Shown here: positions 23,459-29,126 of the stretch, piece after piece
Position numbering within the stretch: position 1 is the first letter of the stretch
How the letters are laid out: each line of letters opens with the position of its first letter
Source of the DNA: Deltaproteobacteria bacterium GWC2_42_11
GTDB lineage: Bacteria; Desulfobacterota; GWC2-55-46; UBA9637; GWC2-42-11
Reading direction: 5' to 3'
NCBI GenBank assembly: GCA_001797495.1
Contig: MGPS01000061.1
Coordinates: 1-42,525 of the forward strand
DNA length: 42,525 nt
Program-made: the position numbers and the translations under genes
Notes under the pieces: model-generated
Seen by the model: the letters and a program-made list of their open reading frames with translations, nothing else
Database searches by the model: none
Told to the model about the DNA's origin: nothing

Positions 23459-24574
23459 ATGAAAAAGATTGAACGTGCAGTTCCCCCGCAATCCCCGCTA
23501 AAAGGGGCTGGGTCAAGGGGGAACAATGAAAATAATACACTTCCTTACACGGGAAGAACACCACAACGTGCTAGAGAGGTTCTTCAACTCGTATGTCCCG
23601 CAGGGAACCTGCCGTCTTTAAAGGCTGCAATCGATAATGGTGCGGATGTGGTTTATACAGGCTTTAATGATGCTACGAATGCCCGCAATTTTGAAGGCTT
23701 GAATTTTACCACTCAGAAACTTGCAGAAGGCATATCATATGCCCATAAAAAAGGTAAAAAGGTATATATCGCCATAAACACATTTCCGCAGGGTAATACA
23801 TATCATCAATGGTATAACTCGGTCGATAAGGCAGTATCTCTTGGTGCGGACGCACTTATCATTGCCAATCTGGGCATTCTTAAATATGCAAGGGACAAAT
23901 ATCCTGATGTGAATCTTCATTTAAGCGTTCAGGCAAGTGCCTCAAATTATGAGAGCATAAATTTCTACAAAAAATATTTTGGCATTAAAAGGGTCATCCT
24001 GCCGAGGGTGTTGACTGTAAAAGAGATGAAGGCGCTGCGGGACAATACTGATGTTGAACTTGAGGTCTTTGCGCTCGGTGGGCTCTGTATAAATATTGAA
24101 GGGAGGTGCTACCTTTCGTCATTTGTTACAGGCGCTTCAACAAATACAGAGGGCGCATGTTCTCCGTCAAGGTTTGTCAGGTTTATAAATGAAAATGACC
24201 ACATGAAAATAACTTTAAACAATGTTGTGTTAAATAACCTTGCACCTGGTGAGACATCGCCTTATCCAACATGCTGCAAGGGCAGATATATTACAGAAAA
24301 GGGAGAATACTTCTACTCATTTGAAGAGCCCGAATCATTAAATGTTATGGAGATAATACCGAGACTTATTGAGGCAGGTATTGATGCCTTGAAGATAGAG
24401 GGCAGGCAGAGGACAAAGGCATATGTTGCAACTGTAACCTCTGCCTTGAGAAAGGCAATTGATATGTACTATAAAAACCCATCTTCATACAGAATTGACG
24501 ATAATCTGATGTCATTGGCAAATGCAACATTTGAAGGCACAAAGCCGACACTTGGATGTTATCTGGAGAAATGA
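23459..24574 (+). CDS. ubiU: UbiU, O2-independent ubiquinone hydroxylation subunit (U32 family)
   Basis: In E. coli, UbiU and UbiV form an Fe-S heterodimer needed for O2-independent ring hydroxylation. 371 residues from ATG 23459 (AGAGGA upstream). The core LQLVCPAGNLPSLKAAIDNG begins at residue 42 and closely follows E. coli UbiU throughout. The four cluster cysteines are C210, C217, C234 and C273, with spacings 7, 17 and 39 identical to E. coli C169/C176/C193/C232. Residues 1-41 have no family counterpart; part of them (PPQSPLKGAGSRG) is encoded by an inverted repeat at 23480-23524. A TTG at 23432 is a less likely start. ubiV follows within two bases. Confidence 0.93.
   Translation: MKKIERAVPPQSPLKGAGSRGNNENNTLPYTGRTPQRAREVLQLVCPAGNLPSLKAAIDNGADVVYTGFNDATNARNFEGLNFTTQKLAEGISYAHKKGKKVYIAINTFPQGNTYHQWYNSVDKAVSLGADALIIANLGILKYARDKYPDVNLHLSVQASASNYESINFYKKYFGIKRVILPRVLTVKEMKALRDNTDVELEVFALGGLCINIEGRCYLSSFVTGASTNTEGACSPSRFVRFINENDHMKITLNNVVLNNLAPGETSPYPTCCKGRYITEKGEYFYSFEEPESLNVMEIIPRLIEAGIDALKIEGRQRTKAYVATVTSALRKAIDMYYKNPSSYRIDDNLMSLANATFEGTKPTLGCYLEK
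23480..23524. repeat. C/G-run palindrome inside the ubiU N-terminal region
   Basis: GTTCCCCC at 23480-23487 pairs with GGGGGAAC at 23517-23524, and the inner CCCCGC.TAAAA.GGGG forms a second stem. It is the same kind of element as 24881-24926 in ubiV. It lies in frame and contributes PPQSPLKGAGSRG-like residues. Confidence 0.8.
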
Positions 24575-24575
24575 A

Positions 24576-25544
24576 ATGCAGTTAACACTTGGACCGGTTT
24601 TATTTGACTGGAAAAGAGAAGACTTATTCGGGTTTTATGATGAGGTAAAGGATATGCCTGTTGACAGGGTGTATCTTGGCGAGGTGGTATGCTCAAAGAA
24701 AAATGGTTTGACCTTAAAGGATATAGAAAATATCGGAAAGAAACTTGAAGATGCAGACAAAAAAGTCATTGTCTCAAGTTTGGCTGTTGTTAGCAATGAG
24801 GATGAACTAAATCTTGTAAGGGATATTGTGCAACTTCCTTTTTCCATAGAAGCAAATGATATGAGTGCTTTTAATATTATAAATCCCCCTTTGCCCCCCT
24901 TTAGTAAAGGGGGGATGGGGGGATTTGAAATCATTGCAGGACCACACATCACCACCTACAATGTGCCGTCCATACAGTTTTTGCAGGGTATTGGTGTTAA
25001 CAGGGTTGTGTTTCCTGTTGAACTCTCAAGGGATGCGATTGAATATAACATACAGAACACAAATATTGACGGAGAAGTATTTGCGCATGGCAAGGTTCCG
25101 CTTGCATTTTCATGGCGGTGTTATACATCAAGGGAATATGGTTTGAATAAGGACGACTGCAAACATCACTGCAGGCTTCATCCTGACGGGATGATACTGC
25201 GAACCATTGAAAAAGAGCCGCTATTCACTATAAACGGCACATCTATATTAAGCGGGCTTGTATATACACTTGTTGAATTTATTGAAGATTTAAAAGAGAT
25301 TGATGTTAAGGCTTTGCGAATTTCACCGCAGTGGCAGAATACAAAGGATATTGTTAATATCTTTAGGAAAAGAATTGATGGAGAGATTTCAGGTGAAGAA
25401 GGAATGACAATGCTAAAACAAACAAGTCAAACTGGCTTTTGCAATGGGTGGTATATGGGAAAGGCAGGGAAGGAATATTTGGCGGCTCCCAAAAAGTCCA
25501 TCTGCAGCGTTGTCGCTGCGGCTTCTTCGCTCAACATACGCTAA
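24576..25544 (+). CDS. ubiV: UbiV, O2-independent ubiquinone hydroxylation subunit (U32 family)
   Basis: Partner of UbiU. 322 residues from ATG 24576 (MQLTLGPVLFDWKRE); an earlier in-frame start at 24522 would run through the end of ubiU. Cluster cysteines are C39 (GEVVCSKK), C182, C195 and C199 (RCYTSREYGLNKDDCKHHC), matching E. coli UbiV C39/C180/C193/C197 in spacing. It is about 30 residues longer than the E. coli protein: residues about 102-117 (PPLPPFSKGGMGG) are an in-frame 46-base palindrome, and the last ~17 residues (KSICSVVAAASSLNIR) lie in another repeat whose hairpin contains the stop codon. Confidence 0.92.
   Translation: MQLTLGPVLFDWKREDLFGFYDEVKDMPVDRVYLGEVVCSKKNGLTLKDIENIGKKLEDADKKVIVSSLAVVSNEDELNLVRDIVQLPFSIEANDMSAFNIINPPLPPFSKGGMGGFEIIAGPHITTYNVPSIQFLQGIGVNRVVFPVELSRDAIEYNIQNTNIDGEVFAHGKVPLAFSWRCYTSREYGLNKDDCKHHCRLHPDGMILRTIEKEPLFTINGTSILSGLVYTLVEFIEDLKEIDVKALRISPQWQNTKDIVNIFRKRIDGEISGEEGMTMLKQTSQTGFCNGWYMGKAGKEYLAAPKKSICSVVAAASSLNIR
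24881..24926. repeat. 46-bp palindrome inserted in frame in ubiV
   Basis: AAATCCCCC (24881-24889) and GGGGGATTT (24918-24926) form the outer stem; CCCCCCTTTA (24894-24903) and TAAAGGGGGG (24905-24914) form an inner stem with a one-base loop. The element interrupts the alignment of UbiV with its E. coli homologue between the 'EANDMSAFN' and 'AGPHITTYN' blocks without breaking the frame. Confidence 0.92.
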
Positions 25545-25564: not shown

Positions 25565-25668
25565 CTTGCTCCGCCTTGCATCTGGAGCCTTTTAGTTTGC
25601 CGCCAGGCATCTGGGCAATTTTTGAGCGTGAACATTTTTGGATTTAATTTTTTAGAGGGAGGGTAAAT

Positions 25669-26076
25669 ATGGCAGACATTTTAGATAAGGCAATTTTGAT
25701 TGGCATGGGAATTGAGAAGAAGTTAAAACAGGCTGTAGATGAACTTGCAGAAGAGGCAAAGAAAGAAGATACAGGTGAATCAAAATTGCCCCCAAGAAAA
25801 GAACTTGAAAATAAGGTTGTAGAGGATGCAGTAAAGATATTGAGGGGGGTTGTTGCTGCTGCAAAGTCAGGCAAAGAGATGATAGATGAACATATAAAAA
25901 ATGCTGTTCAAGAAATACTGGAGAAATTTAAGGTTGCTACCCGTGAGGACATTGATGTTATAGAAAAAATGGCGCAGGTGGCGCGGGAAAAGGTAGATAG
26001 ACTTGAGAAGAGGATAGAGGAACTTGAAAGACAAGGAGCAGGGGGCAGGGGTCAGGGGTCAGGGAAAAACGGATAA
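25669..26076 (+). CDS. Coiled-coil protein, phasin-like with UbiK-like C-terminal half
   Basis: 135 residues, helical and charged, with GGGAGGG ahead of the ATG. The N-terminal half (LIGMGIEKKLKQAVDELAEEAKKE) resembles phasin/granule-associated proteins. The C-terminal half (VQEILEKFKVATREDIDVIEKMAQVAREKVDRLEKRIEELER, about 80-125) follows the pattern of the BMFP/UbiK family (LVSREEFDVQ..L..TREKL..LE.RI.ELE), as does its place between ubiV and ubiB. UbiK is a lipid-binding accessory factor of ubiquinone synthesis in E. coli. The phasin family shares a similar 'T(R)EDID..E' coiled coil, so the family call is open. The last ~12 residues (GAGGRGQGSGKNG) come from a 'gggtcagg' repeat. Confidence 0.6.
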   Translation: MADILDKAILIGMGIEKKLKQAVDELAEEAKKEDTGESKLPPRKELENKVVEDAVKILRGVVAAAKSGKEMIDEHIKNAVQEILEKFKVATREDIDVIEKMAQVAREKVDRLEKRIEELERQGAGGRGQGSGKNG

Positions 26077-26118
26077 CGCACAACGCGCATGCAGCACGGT
26101 ATTTTTCTAGGGCAGGAA

Positions 26119-26177
26119 GGGGACTGTCCCTATTTACGGACGGAGCGAAGCGGAGTCGTAGAATAGGGACAGTCCCC
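26119..26177. repeat. Long REP-like palindrome with flanking direct repeats
   Basis: GGGGACTGTCCCTATT (26119-26134) is perfectly complementary to AATAGGGACAGTCCCC (26162-26177), with a G/A-rich loop. Imperfect direct repeats flank it: CGCATGCAGCACGGTATTTT at about 26087 and CGCATCACGCACGGTATTTT at about 26192. This is the structure expected of a REP-type element moved by RAYT (Y1-type) transposases; no such gene is in the window. A half-site occurs at 270-280. Confidence 0.85.
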
Positions 26178-26214
26178 CTGCATAATGCACACGCATCACG
26201 CACGGTATTTTCCT

Positions 26215-27894
26215 ATGCCTTCAAAAACATACAAAAATATAAAACGGCTTTATAGAATAATCAGGACATTCATAAAATATGGCTTCGGTGACCTGATAAA
26301 GGAACTAAAGATACTTCCTTTCTTTGCTGTCTTTGAAAAGGTCTTATTCCTTAGGAGCAAAAAGGTAACACAGGATTTTACCCTGCCGCAGCGCGTCAGG
26401 ATGCTCCTTGAAGAACTTGGTCCTGTATTTGTAAAACTTGGGCAGATTGTTTCAATCCGTGCTGATATGCTCCCGCCGGACTGGCTTGAGGAATTTAAAA
26501 AACTTCAGGACATGGTCCCGCCATTCCCGTTTGCAGATGTAAAAAAAACTGTTGAGACATCCTTAAAATCGCCCCTTTCCGAGAAATTCAAGACATTTGA
26601 TGAAACCCCTTGCGCATCTGCATCCATTGCGCAGGTTCATTATGCATTACTGCACGATGGCAATGAGGTCGCAGTAAAGGTTAAAAGACCGGGCATTGAT
26701 AAGACTATTGAGCAGGACATCTCTGTTATGTACACAATTGCAAGACTAATAGACAAATATGTGCCGACATTCCGCAGATACAGACCAACAGAGGTTGTTG
26801 ATGAATTCAAAAGGGTCATATCAAAGGAGCAGGACTTTGCGGTTGAGGGTGTCAATATCACAAGATTCCACAAGATGTTTGAGGGAGATAATACTGTCCA
26901 GATTCCTAAAGTGTTCTGGGACTACACAACTACTGATGTCTTAACAATGGAGAGGATATATGGCGTTCCTTTTGACGAATCTGAAAAGATAAAGGCGCTT
27001 GGGATTGATATTAAAAAACTTACAACAGATGCGCTCAATGCGTTTTTTAAGCAGGTCTTTGAATTCGGTGTGTTTCACGCAGACCTCCATCCCGGGAATA
27101 TTTTTGCGAGACAGGACGGTGTTATCATTTACCTTGATTTCGGCATCATTGGCAGGATTGATGACAGTGTCAGGCGGTATCTTGCAGGTATGCTTTATAA
27201 TCTGGTTAAAAGAGATTACCGCCAGATGGCAGTGATACACAGGGACATGGGGCTTATATCAAAGGATGTGGATATAAATGAGTTTGAAGATGTTTTGAGG
27301 GAGATAACAGAGCCCATATTTGACAAGCCTCTTGAGAGGATAGATATATCAGCACTTTTGTTCAGGCTTATAAGAACAGCAAGAAGGTTTAACATGAGAC
27401 TCCAGCCGAATCTTTTACTCTTGCAAAAATCAATGGTGATAATTGAAGGTGTTGGAAGGCAGTTAAACCCTGAACTGAATGTATGGGGAATTGTGAAGCC
27501 TATGATTTACAAATGGATGATAAAAGAAAAGACATCACCTAAGAGGATTTATGAAAGGGGAAAAGAGAGGGTTTCGGGTATTGCAGAGATCGTTAGTGGT
27601 ATGCCGTATCAGGTGCATTCCATCTTGGATAAAACACTCAATGAGGATTTAAAGATTGGTTTTGTTCATCATAAACTTGGTACACTATTAGATGAGATTT
27701 CCAAACTCGGTCAGAGATTAACGATGGGGATTATGCTGGCAGGACTATTCATAGGCTCTTCTCTCCTTGCATTTGCCAGCAGAGAAGACAGTTACAGGCT
27801 TCTTGGTGTGCCTTTTTTAAGCGGGATAGGATTTATTGCAGGTGTGGTTATGAGCATATTTCTTATAATTTTGATGATAAGAAAAATGGACTAG
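26215..27894 (+). CDS. ubiB: UbiB/ADCK-family atypical kinase-like protein of quinone synthesis
   Basis: Membrane-bound kinase-like ATPase needed for ubiquinone synthesis, thought to help extract lipid intermediates. From ATG 26215 (MPSKTYKNIKRLYRI) it has 559 residues; an in-frame ATG at 26185 lies in repeat DNA. Diagnostic features are KLGQ (74-77) in the N-terminal extension, the alanine-rich loop ASASIAQVH (134-142), K155 (VAVKVKRPG), HADLHPGN (288-295) and DFG (308-310). Two C-terminal transmembrane helices are seen at about 505-525 and 532-554. UbiE starts 10 bases after its stop. Confidence 0.93.
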   Translation: MPSKTYKNIKRLYRIIRTFIKYGFGDLIKELKILPFFAVFEKVLFLRSKKVTQDFTLPQRVRMLLEELGPVFVKLGQIVSIRADMLPPDWLEEFKKLQDMVPPFPFADVKKTVETSLKSPLSEKFKTFDETPCASASIAQVHYALLHDGNEVAVKVKRPGIDKTIEQDISVMYTIARLIDKYVPTFRRYRPTEVVDEFKRVISKEQDFAVEGVNITRFHKMFEGDNTVQIPKVFWDYTTTDVLTMERIYGVPFDESEKIKALGIDIKKLTTDALNAFFKQVFEFGVFHADLHPGNIFARQDGVIIYLDFGIIGRIDDSVRRYLAGMLYNLVKRDYRQMAVIHRDMGLISKDVDINEFEDVLREITEPIFDKPLERIDISALLFRLIRTARRFNMRLQPNLLLLQKSMVIIEGVGRQLNPELNVWGIVKPMIYKWMIKEKTSPKRIYERGKERVSGIAEIVSGMPYQVHSILDKTLNEDLKIGFVHHKLGTLLDEISKLGQRLTMGIMLAGLFIGSSLLAFASREDSYRLLGVPFLSGIGFIAGVVMSIFLIILMIRKMD

Positions 27895-27903
27895 AGGCAA
27901 TAT

Positions 27904-28653
27904 ATGGAAGATAAAAACACGACATACTTTGGCAGCAAGGTTATTCCGGTGGAAGAAAAAAAGCCGCGCGTGGCAAATATATTTTCATCTGTTGCTGGTA
28001 GATACGACTTGATGAATGATTTAATGAGTCTTGGCGTTCACAGACTCTGGAAGAGGTTTTTTGTCGAAAAGGCAAGGCTCAAACAGGGGGATATTGCACT
28101 TGATGTTGCAGGCGGGACAGGGGATATCGCAATACTCATGGCAAAGAAGGTTGGAGAAAATGGCATGGTTGTTATCTATGATATAAACGGGGAGATGATT
28201 GAAGAAGGGAGACGCAAGTGCGTTGACAGAGGGTTTTTGAAAAACATCCAGTATGTCCAGGGCGATGCAGAGGATATAGGTTTTCCTGATAATACATTCC
28301 ATGCTGCCGCAGTGAGTTTCGGCATAAGAAATGTTACATACATTGAAAAGGCGTTTAAAGAGATGGCAAGGGTTACAAAGCCCGGGGGCAGGGTTATGTG
28401 CCTTGAATTTTCGCACCCGACATCAAAACTATTCAGCAGGGTTTATGACCTGTATTCATTCAATATACTCCCTGAGATAGGTGATATTGTTACAGGCAAT
28501 AGAGAGGCATACACATACCTGCCAGAGTCTATCAGAAAATTTCCAATTCAGGAAGAGTTGAAAAAGATGCTTGAGGGAATAGGGCTTTTTAATGTTAAAT
28601 ACTATAATCTCTTTAACGGCATTGCAGCAGTGCATGTCGGGGTGAAAGTATGA
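27904..28653 (+). CDS. ubiE: UbiE-type quinone C-methyltransferase
   Basis: SAM-dependent C-methyltransferase acting on the ubiquinone (and in some bacteria menaquinone) ring. 249 residues. The N-terminus TTYFGSKVIPVEEKKPRVAN and FSSVAGRYDLMNDLMSLGVH are UbiE signatures, followed by the SAM motif LDVAGGTGDIA (66-76), SFGIRNVTYIEKAFKEMARV, and PGGRVMCLEFSHP. The N-terminal HFG-like segment favours UbiE over the menaquinone-only MenG type. No men genes are in the window. It overlaps ubiT by ATGA. Confidence 0.93.
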   Translation: MEDKNTTYFGSKVIPVEEKKPRVANIFSSVAGRYDLMNDLMSLGVHRLWKRFFVEKARLKQGDIALDVAGGTGDIAILMAKKVGENGMVVIYDINGEMIEEGRRKCVDRGFLKNIQYVQGDAEDIGFPDNTFHAAAVSFGIRNVTYIEKAFKEMARVTKPGGRVMCLEFSHPTSKLFSRVYDLYSFNILPEIGDIVTGNREAYTYLPESIRKFPIQEELKKMLEGIGLFNVKYYNLFNGIAAVHVGVKV

Positions 28654-29126
28654 AACAGGTGTCAGAGGTCAGGGGTCAGAAGTCAGAAGTTAAAGAGTGG
28701 CTCAAGGTTCAAGGTTCAAGGTTTAGGGAAGTCCTGATAACTGGCAACCAGCAACCGGCAACTGCCTTTTTAAAATTTATGCCTCTCTGGATTGAGGCAA
28801 TAGGCATGGGTGTTTTTATGGGTGCAATCCTTGATAGCAACCCCACCTTTAAGGAGAGGCTTAAGGAATTAGGCGATAAAGTTTTTCTGTTTACTGCCTC
28901 TGATATAAAAAAGAATTTTTACTTTCATATTAAGGACGGTGATATAAAAGTCATTCCAAATTTTGCAGGAAATGTGGATGTCACAATGCAAGGTGAGACA
29001 AATGTTTTATTCGGACTCTTACTCGGCAAGGAAGACCCTGATACAGTTTTCTTTTCAAGAAAACTTATAATAAACGGCGACACCGCATCTGCAATCCATT
29101 TTAAGAACATATTGAATAATCTGTAA
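28650..29126 (+). CDS. ubiT: UbiT, SCP2-domain lipid-binding accessory protein
   Basis: In E. coli the SCP2 protein UbiT is required for O2-independent ubiquinone synthesis and replaces UbiJ. 158 residues with an SCP2 domain from about 50. The C-terminal block KEDPDTVFFSRKLIINGDTA parallels E. coli UbiT (QDPDTLFFQRRLVIEGDTE) almost residue for residue. Residues about 1-38 (SEVRGQKSEVKE, KVQGSRF, TGNQQPAT) are encoded by 'gtcagaagtcag', 'ggttcaaggttcaagg' and 'caaccagcaaccggcaac' repeats and have no family counterpart. The start overlaps the ubiE stop. It is the last gene of the block; the next gene is convergent. Confidence 0.9.
   Translation: MKQVSEVRGQKSEVKEWLKVQGSRFREVLITGNQQPATAFLKFMPLWIEAIGMGVFMGAILDSNPTFKERLKELGDKVFLFTASDIKKNFYFHIKDGDIKVIPNFAGNVDVTMQGETNVLFGLLLGKEDPDTVFFSRKLIINGDTASAIHFKNILNNL

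Follow-up and report, generated by a model that had tools for sequence, protein, structure and literature searches.

UbiK of Pseudomonadota (YqiC; NF047835, PF04380) has a short N-terminus directly before a VTREEFD-type motif and a coiled coil. In E. coli, UbiK docks onto residues 171-201 of UbiJ, which form a C-terminal coil (PMC9499169). Deletion of ubiK in E. coli is without effect on anaerobic, UbiT-dependent synthesis (PMC6747719), and E. coli UbiT can replace UbiJ in UbiUV-driven synthesis (PMC10470549). Alphaproteobacteria are devoid of UbiJ (PMC11707229), and the action of UbiK in bacteria that lack UbiJ still awaits an explanation. The exact role of UbiB is likewise still called elusive (PMC10470549). 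An O2-independent ubiquinone (UQ) pathway encoded by the loci ubiCADG and ubiVKBET has been described in the Desulfobacterota class GWC2-55-46 (PMC13386864; mSystems, July 2026). According to the available part of that paper, all ubi genes that were tested increased UQ in their respective E. coli mutants, with ubiK as the only exception: ubiK of a same-class relative did not complement E. coli ΔubiK, which leaves its function as the sole ubi step unproven there. Judging from the class and the order of the genes, the ubiK of ubiVKBET appears to belong to the same gene family as the gene studied here, and its name is already published in that text and not new. The paper's treatment of ubiK, in its available part, does not discuss a phasin relationship, a ubiB-phasin linkage or a missing UbiT tail. 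New with respect to that text are the phasin-like N-terminus, the linkage of phasin genes with ubiB, the tail-less UbiT and the lack of a recognizable polyhydroxyalkanoate (PHA) synthase in all sampled genomes of the class.

The window, meaning the whole stretch of 42,525 nucleotides analyzed here from Deltaproteobacteria bacterium GWC2_42_11, displays ubiG, ubiU and ubiV upstream of ubiK and ubiB, a ubiE-type gene and ubiT downstream of it, as assigned with NCBIfam models. All of these neighbors pass at least one curated NCBIfam cut-off, verifying the preliminary description, made from the DNA letters, of a small gene between ubiV and ubiB inside a run of ubi genes. The features of the locus are as follows.

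23462-24574, + strand: ubiU (NCBIfam UbiU 465.5 bits, cut-off 440).
24573-25544, + strand: ubiV (NCBIfam UbiV 285.8 bits, cut-off 275; alignment); the open reading frame (ORF) itself opens at 24522, and the start is likely 24573, barely overlapping the ubiU stop.
25655-25663, + strand: Shine-Dalgarno sequence GAGGGAGGG, read directly off the sequence.
25669-26076, + strand: gene for a UbiK/BMFP-phasin hybrid, named ubiK in the published ubiVKBET locus (ORF; Pfam BMFP; kept in relatives).
25669-25791, + strand: N-terminal phasin-like module, residues 1-41 (MADILDKAILIGMGIEKKL...; alignments, and hhalign against UbiB-adjacent phasins from residue 1).
25807-26028, + strand: UbiK/BMFP domain, residues 47-120 (Pfam match, alignment, hhalign, AlphaFold helix).
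26029-26073, + strand: lineage-specific Gly-rich tail, residues 121-135 (sequence and comparison of relatives).
26119-26177, no strand assigned: perfect 16-nt inverted repeat (GGGGACTGTCCCTATT) in the gap between ubiK and ubiB.
26185-27894, + strand: ubiB (TIGR01982 529.3 bits, cut-off 487.55; UQ-type UbiB clade); translation more likely begins at an in-frame ATG, position 26215.
27904-28653, + strand: ubiE (Pfam Ubie_methyltran 276.2 bits; TIGR01934 268.8 bits, cut-off 158.35).
28650-29126, + strand: ubiT, a single SCP2 domain without C-terminal tail (NCBIfam UbiT 72.5 bits, cut-off 46.9; alignment with E. coli UbiJ and UbiT).

The ubiK ORF starts with ATG, encodes 135 amino acids, falls exactly where the preliminary description had placed it and is preceded by a strong ribosome-binding site. 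The UbiK/BMFP domain ends in a coiled coil that is one heptad longer than in generic phasins. The Gly-rich tail is missing in the close relative at locus L002, where the protein stops after LETKLQ.

A homologue of the window ubiK occurs in 54 of 59 sampled related genomes, and a scan of genome contigs identifies the carriers as Deltaproteobacteria MAGs, including GWA2_55_10. These names agree with the Desulfobacterota class GWC2-55-46 and, together with the similarly arranged published locus, are the ground for placing the window in that class. Among 38 class loci, ubiK lies within 400 nt of ubiV on every contig that holds the upstream ubiV (33/33); for ubiB, the same distance limit holds in 31 of 36 cases. 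Four of the five ubiK-ubiB exceptions carry insertions of about 2-5.5 kb and one has a spacing of 405 nt; in family f2, insertions of this size separate ubiK from ubiB while adjacency to ubiV is kept wherever the contig includes ubiV. The gene is part of the ubi cluster, as first proposed, and belongs to an O2-independent UQ locus. In a phylum sample of 297 genomes, a window-type ubiK accompanies strong UbiV in 14 of 15 genomes, with strong matches in none of the other 282, an association that the preliminary description had suggested looking for (Fisher p 4e-23, for genomes that are not independent, as they come from the class and two other families). The lone strong-UbiV genome without ubiK is G151, an 86%-complete MAG in which only UbiB of the other type was found. 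G079 was initially taken for a UbiV genome but left out of the UbiV set because its UbiUV-like pair is 36-40% identical to that of the window and it carries the other type of UbiB; its locus L141 holds this divergent UbiU-UbiV-like pair in a genome with neither ubiK nor a UQ-type UbiB. The UQ gene set with ubiK was also observed outside the class, in families f57 (G117, G151, G178) and f53 (G100; loci of both families: L042, L043, L044, L135, L136, L142 and L143), extending the range beyond the class named in the available part of PMC13386864. In these two families, ubiK stays with ubiB-ubiE(-ubiT) though ubiUV lie on another contig.

As evidenced by the Pfam BMFP model (PF04380), which matches residues 47-120 with E 1.3e-11 and, at 45.2 bits, exceeds its gathering score (37.2), the C-terminal half of the protein is of the UbiK/BMFP type. 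The model is matched at E <= 0.001 by all 24 members of the family alignment, with some relatives scoring 31-35 bits, below the gathering score. The NCBIfam UbiK model (NF047835) yields E 2.8e-8 and 34 bits, below its equivalog cut-off of 100. We dropped this cut-off as a membership criterion for being narrow: a UbiK match is found in 107 of 120 Pseudomonadota genomes and only 8 of the 120 pass. Since most Pseudomonadota UbiK matches fail as well, 34 bits lies in the normal range and the failure is uninformative. Using hhalign, the family profile aligned with Pseudomonadota UbiK (20 sequences) at 98.5% over residues 46-130, compared with at most 2.4%, noise level, for reversed or shuffled profiles. 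The alignment of this half is gap-free and includes the 30-residue coil, and both proteins share a motif ahead of the coil, VATREDID in the window and VTREEFD in UbiK. Sequence comparison thus establishes the C-terminal half as homologous to UbiK, in agreement with the initial reading. An AlphaFold model from the 24-sequence alignment was weak overall (pLDDT 63, pTM 0.26) and predicted a long C-terminal helix at residues 92-126, with a local pLDDT of about 74-88 over residues 91-120.

The N-terminal half differs from UbiK. Its first ~40 residues are conserved and have no counterpart in the alignment with Pseudomonadota UbiK, the window protein being longer by about 45 conserved residues. They match short phasins (PF05597) that were found as weak matches in other genomes of the phylum. 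With the short phasins encoded before ubiB in other Desulfobacterota, the protein shares an N-terminal hydrophobic helix containing K-A/T-x-L-x-G-x-G, the overall layout and the place ahead of ubiB; these phasins differ in scoring as Pfam Phasin, or near it, rather than as BMFP and in a coil that is one heptad shorter. The family profile aligned with them at 98.8% over residues 1-124, nearly the whole length, and the gaps include seven coil residues, i.e., one heptad, that is present in UbiK too. Pseudomonadota UbiK itself aligned with the UbiB-adjacent phasins at 96.8%. The window protein scores 16.7 bits against PF05597, under the gathering score of 28.8, and BMFP outscores Phasin in every tested member of its family. 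On these alignments the protein is homologous over its whole length to short phasins directly upstream of ubiB in related bacteria, so the early guess of a phasin derivation proved sound. Rather than the phasin-only match away from ubi genes that had been named as the adverse outcome, we found a BMFP match and a position in the ubi cluster. AlphaFold predicts a helix at residues 2-32, a stretch with hydrophobic moments of 0.36-0.52.

A phasin-profile search of the phylum yielded 109 strong places in 105 genomes. Of these places, 59 (in 59 of the 105 genomes) are immediately upstream of ubiB and share its strand, at a distance of 45-215 nt from the UbiB match, with about zero expected by chance. 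None of the 59 genomes has a strong UbiV, which makes the arrangement independent of the UbiTUV pathway; we presume that they use menaquinone, as the available part of PMC13386864 describes the rest of the phylum. A tree of 88 UbiB proteins, built by a quick method with SH-aLRT support, unites UbiB of the UQ genomes with that of Pseudomonadota (support 100) and separates it from every other UbiB in the phylum. The phasin-linked UbiBs and the second UbiB that UQ genomes carry both fall on the other side. As ubiB has a phasin-type gene ahead of it to either side of this deepest split, the pairing is ancient or has arisen twice. The second UbiB of the UQ genomes (L125-L134) belongs to the type that other genomes of the phylum carry, and no phasin lies upstream of any of these paralogues (0/10). 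UbiK-UbiB neighbors occur in none of the 107 UbiK-bearing Pseudomonadota genomes (tables compared by eye), the nearest being about 18 kb apart. Literature searches on phasins with UbiB or AarF, and on UbiK, BMFP and phasins jointly, found no UbiB link. A phasin-like gene before ubiB, both with and without the UQ pathway, represents a candidate UbiB partner, and we favor UbiB rather than UbiT as the putative working partner of the window protein.

The phasin-like N-terminus and the ubiB linkage also bear on an alternative in which the protein is a UbiK orthologue of the usual kind, acting as a homotrimeric, membrane-active scaffold without a dedicated partner, as presumably in the UbiJ-less Alphaproteobacteria (PMC11707229). 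The C-terminal half aligns gap-free with UbiK of alphaproteobacterial loci as well (window EKMAQVAREKV, alpha KEMARLAREEN), the NCBIfam score is within the Pseudomonadota range (8 of 107 UbiK-matching genomes are above the cut-off), and the co-occurrence with strong UbiV also speaks for an orthologue. Nevertheless, we regard this alternative as unlikely. Pseudomonadota UbiK shares the pre-coil motif, the gap-free coil and a BMFP score above the gathering score, but it lacks the conserved phasin-like N-terminus and shows no tie to ubiB, while the window gene is tied to ubiV and ubiB, stands in a setting without UbiJ and reaches 34 bits against a cut-off of 100. In addition, the published homologue of the window ubiK failed to complement E. 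coli ΔubiK (available part of PMC13386864).

A second alternative keeps the protein a UbiK with a changed partner, binding UbiT directly and replacing UbiJ-UbiK2 in an anaerobic metabolon. An SCP2 gene was found in 51 of the 59 class genomes, exactly one in 50 of them, and in the window the sole SCP2 gene is ubiT, three genes downstream of ubiK; UbiJ is missing, as had been supposed. As with E. coli UbiJ-UbiK2, a UbiK-type coil is combined with an SCP2 protein whose gene is close to ubiB and ubiE, and the ability of E. coli UbiT to stand in for UbiJ (PMC10470549) would fit such a replacement. However, we aligned 26 class UbiT sequences with E. coli UbiJ and UbiT from the K-12 record, and the 25 intact class proteins stop within a few residues of the SCP2 fold, without a UbiJ-like tail. 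Because this UbiT lacks the C-terminal coil by which UbiJ holds UbiK, a coil of the UbiJ style is not available to it. Against this alternative also stand the harmlessness of the E. coli ubiK deletion in anaerobic UbiT-dependent synthesis (PMC6747719) and the homologous phasins that pair with ubiB where strong UbiV is absent. The UbiK-UbiT pairing of the UbiJ kind put forward in the preliminary description is accordingly disfavored and, as far as the alignments go, unlikely; UbiT might bind the ubiK product via another surface, and overall we consider UbiT as the partner improbable. Within the same set, ubiT of L061 (5310-5600) is seemingly broken within the SCP2 fold, and G002, seemingly the same genome, has an SCP2 score of only 20.9 bits.

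Two further alternatives have little weight. Coiled coils yield spurious matches, and a PDB sequence search with the window protein returned only designed or unrelated coils, but a generic coiled-coil protein that is superficially UbiK-like and lies near ubiB for another reason is very hard to reconcile with a match that extends to the pre-coil motif (VATREDID and VTREEFD) and with shuffled and reversed controls that fail. A true phasin that coats PHA or other storage granules and sits in the ubi cluster by accident would explain the phasin-like N-terminus and the weak Pfam Phasin score but is the faintest prospect of all, as BMFP beats Phasin in all tested members and the position is conserved across the class; a PHA-granule role was rejected since no PHA synthase was found in the 59 class genomes at E 1e-15.

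These data suggest, with a confidence that falls a little short of even, that the product of the gene is an accessory protein of the UbiK/BMFP family, in part a UbiK and in part a phasin, which keeps a phasin N-terminus and has UbiB as its main partner in the O2-independent UQ locus. The amphipathic N-terminal helices would rest on the membrane and the C-terminal coiled coil would mediate oligomerization like that of UbiK (trimer or UbiJ-UbiK2). The main partner would be the membrane ATPase-like UbiB, and together UbiB and the ubiK product may pull prenylated intermediates from the membrane and pass them to the UbiE-UbiT-UbiUV enzymes, with UbiT acting as a soluble lipid carrier that is not bound via a UbiJ-like coil. 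Of this proposal, the homologies, the order of the genes and the tail-less UbiT are shown directly, and the oligomeric state, the membrane binding and the contact with UbiB are inferred. UbiB as partner is indicated by the BMFP match and the three-way hhalign homology with its failing controls, by phasins before ubiB in 59 genomes and the pairing on both sides of the UbiB split, by ubiK staying with ubiB when ubiUV are elsewhere and second UbiBs that lack a phasin, and by a class UbiT without the UbiK-binding tail. Against it stand the indirect nature of gene order as evidence, the f2 insertions that part ubiK from ubiB while ubiV adjacency is kept, the lack of UbiK-UbiB neighbors in the 107 Pseudomonadota genomes and the weak structure model. 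A pairing with UbiB offers a reason for the failure of the class ubiK in E. coli reported in the available part of PMC13386864, which would fit a protein unable to join UbiJ; the failure may also have other causes, such as poor expression.

The phasin link hints at the origin of UbiK and bears on how UbiK works where UbiJ is absent. UbiK could descend from, or share an ancestor with, a phasin-type UbiB partner older than ubiquinone, a scenario that we consider possible but doubtful. In this scenario, anaerobes devoid of UQ genes would use a phasin-UbiB pair for another quinone or lipid, the intermediate form would persist in the UQ lineages of Desulfobacterota, and Pseudomonadota would have lost the N-terminus and the gene linkage, some of them adding UbiJ. 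The C-terminal coil of UbiJ shows a weak likeness to the window family (8.9 bits; 1 of 2000 shuffles scored as high), and a UbiJ coil that is a relic of this family would fit a phasin ancestor, though the score is too slight to count as evidence by itself.

Several minor observations concern the same loci. At L021 (G001:C16), ubiK residues 1-78 are fused in frame to UbiB with loss of the coil. This fusion may be an assembly artefact, and we did not take it as evidence because ubiV is frameshifted in the same assembly. The window genome contains a further generic phasin elsewhere (L124, 1968-2309), beside neither ubiB. The window ubiV (24573-25544) includes an in-frame PPLPPFSKGGMGGF stretch that is absent in L064 and L085 and longer in the close relative L061; it looks like a coding repeat insertion. 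Finally, the inverted repeat GGGGACTGTCCCTATT between ubiK and ubiB is bracketed by a 27-nt direct repeat with 81% identity (26083-26109 and 26189-26215), and a second copy of the element, 90% identical, lies at G000:C18:15613-15679, so that it is probably a small mobile or REP-like element.
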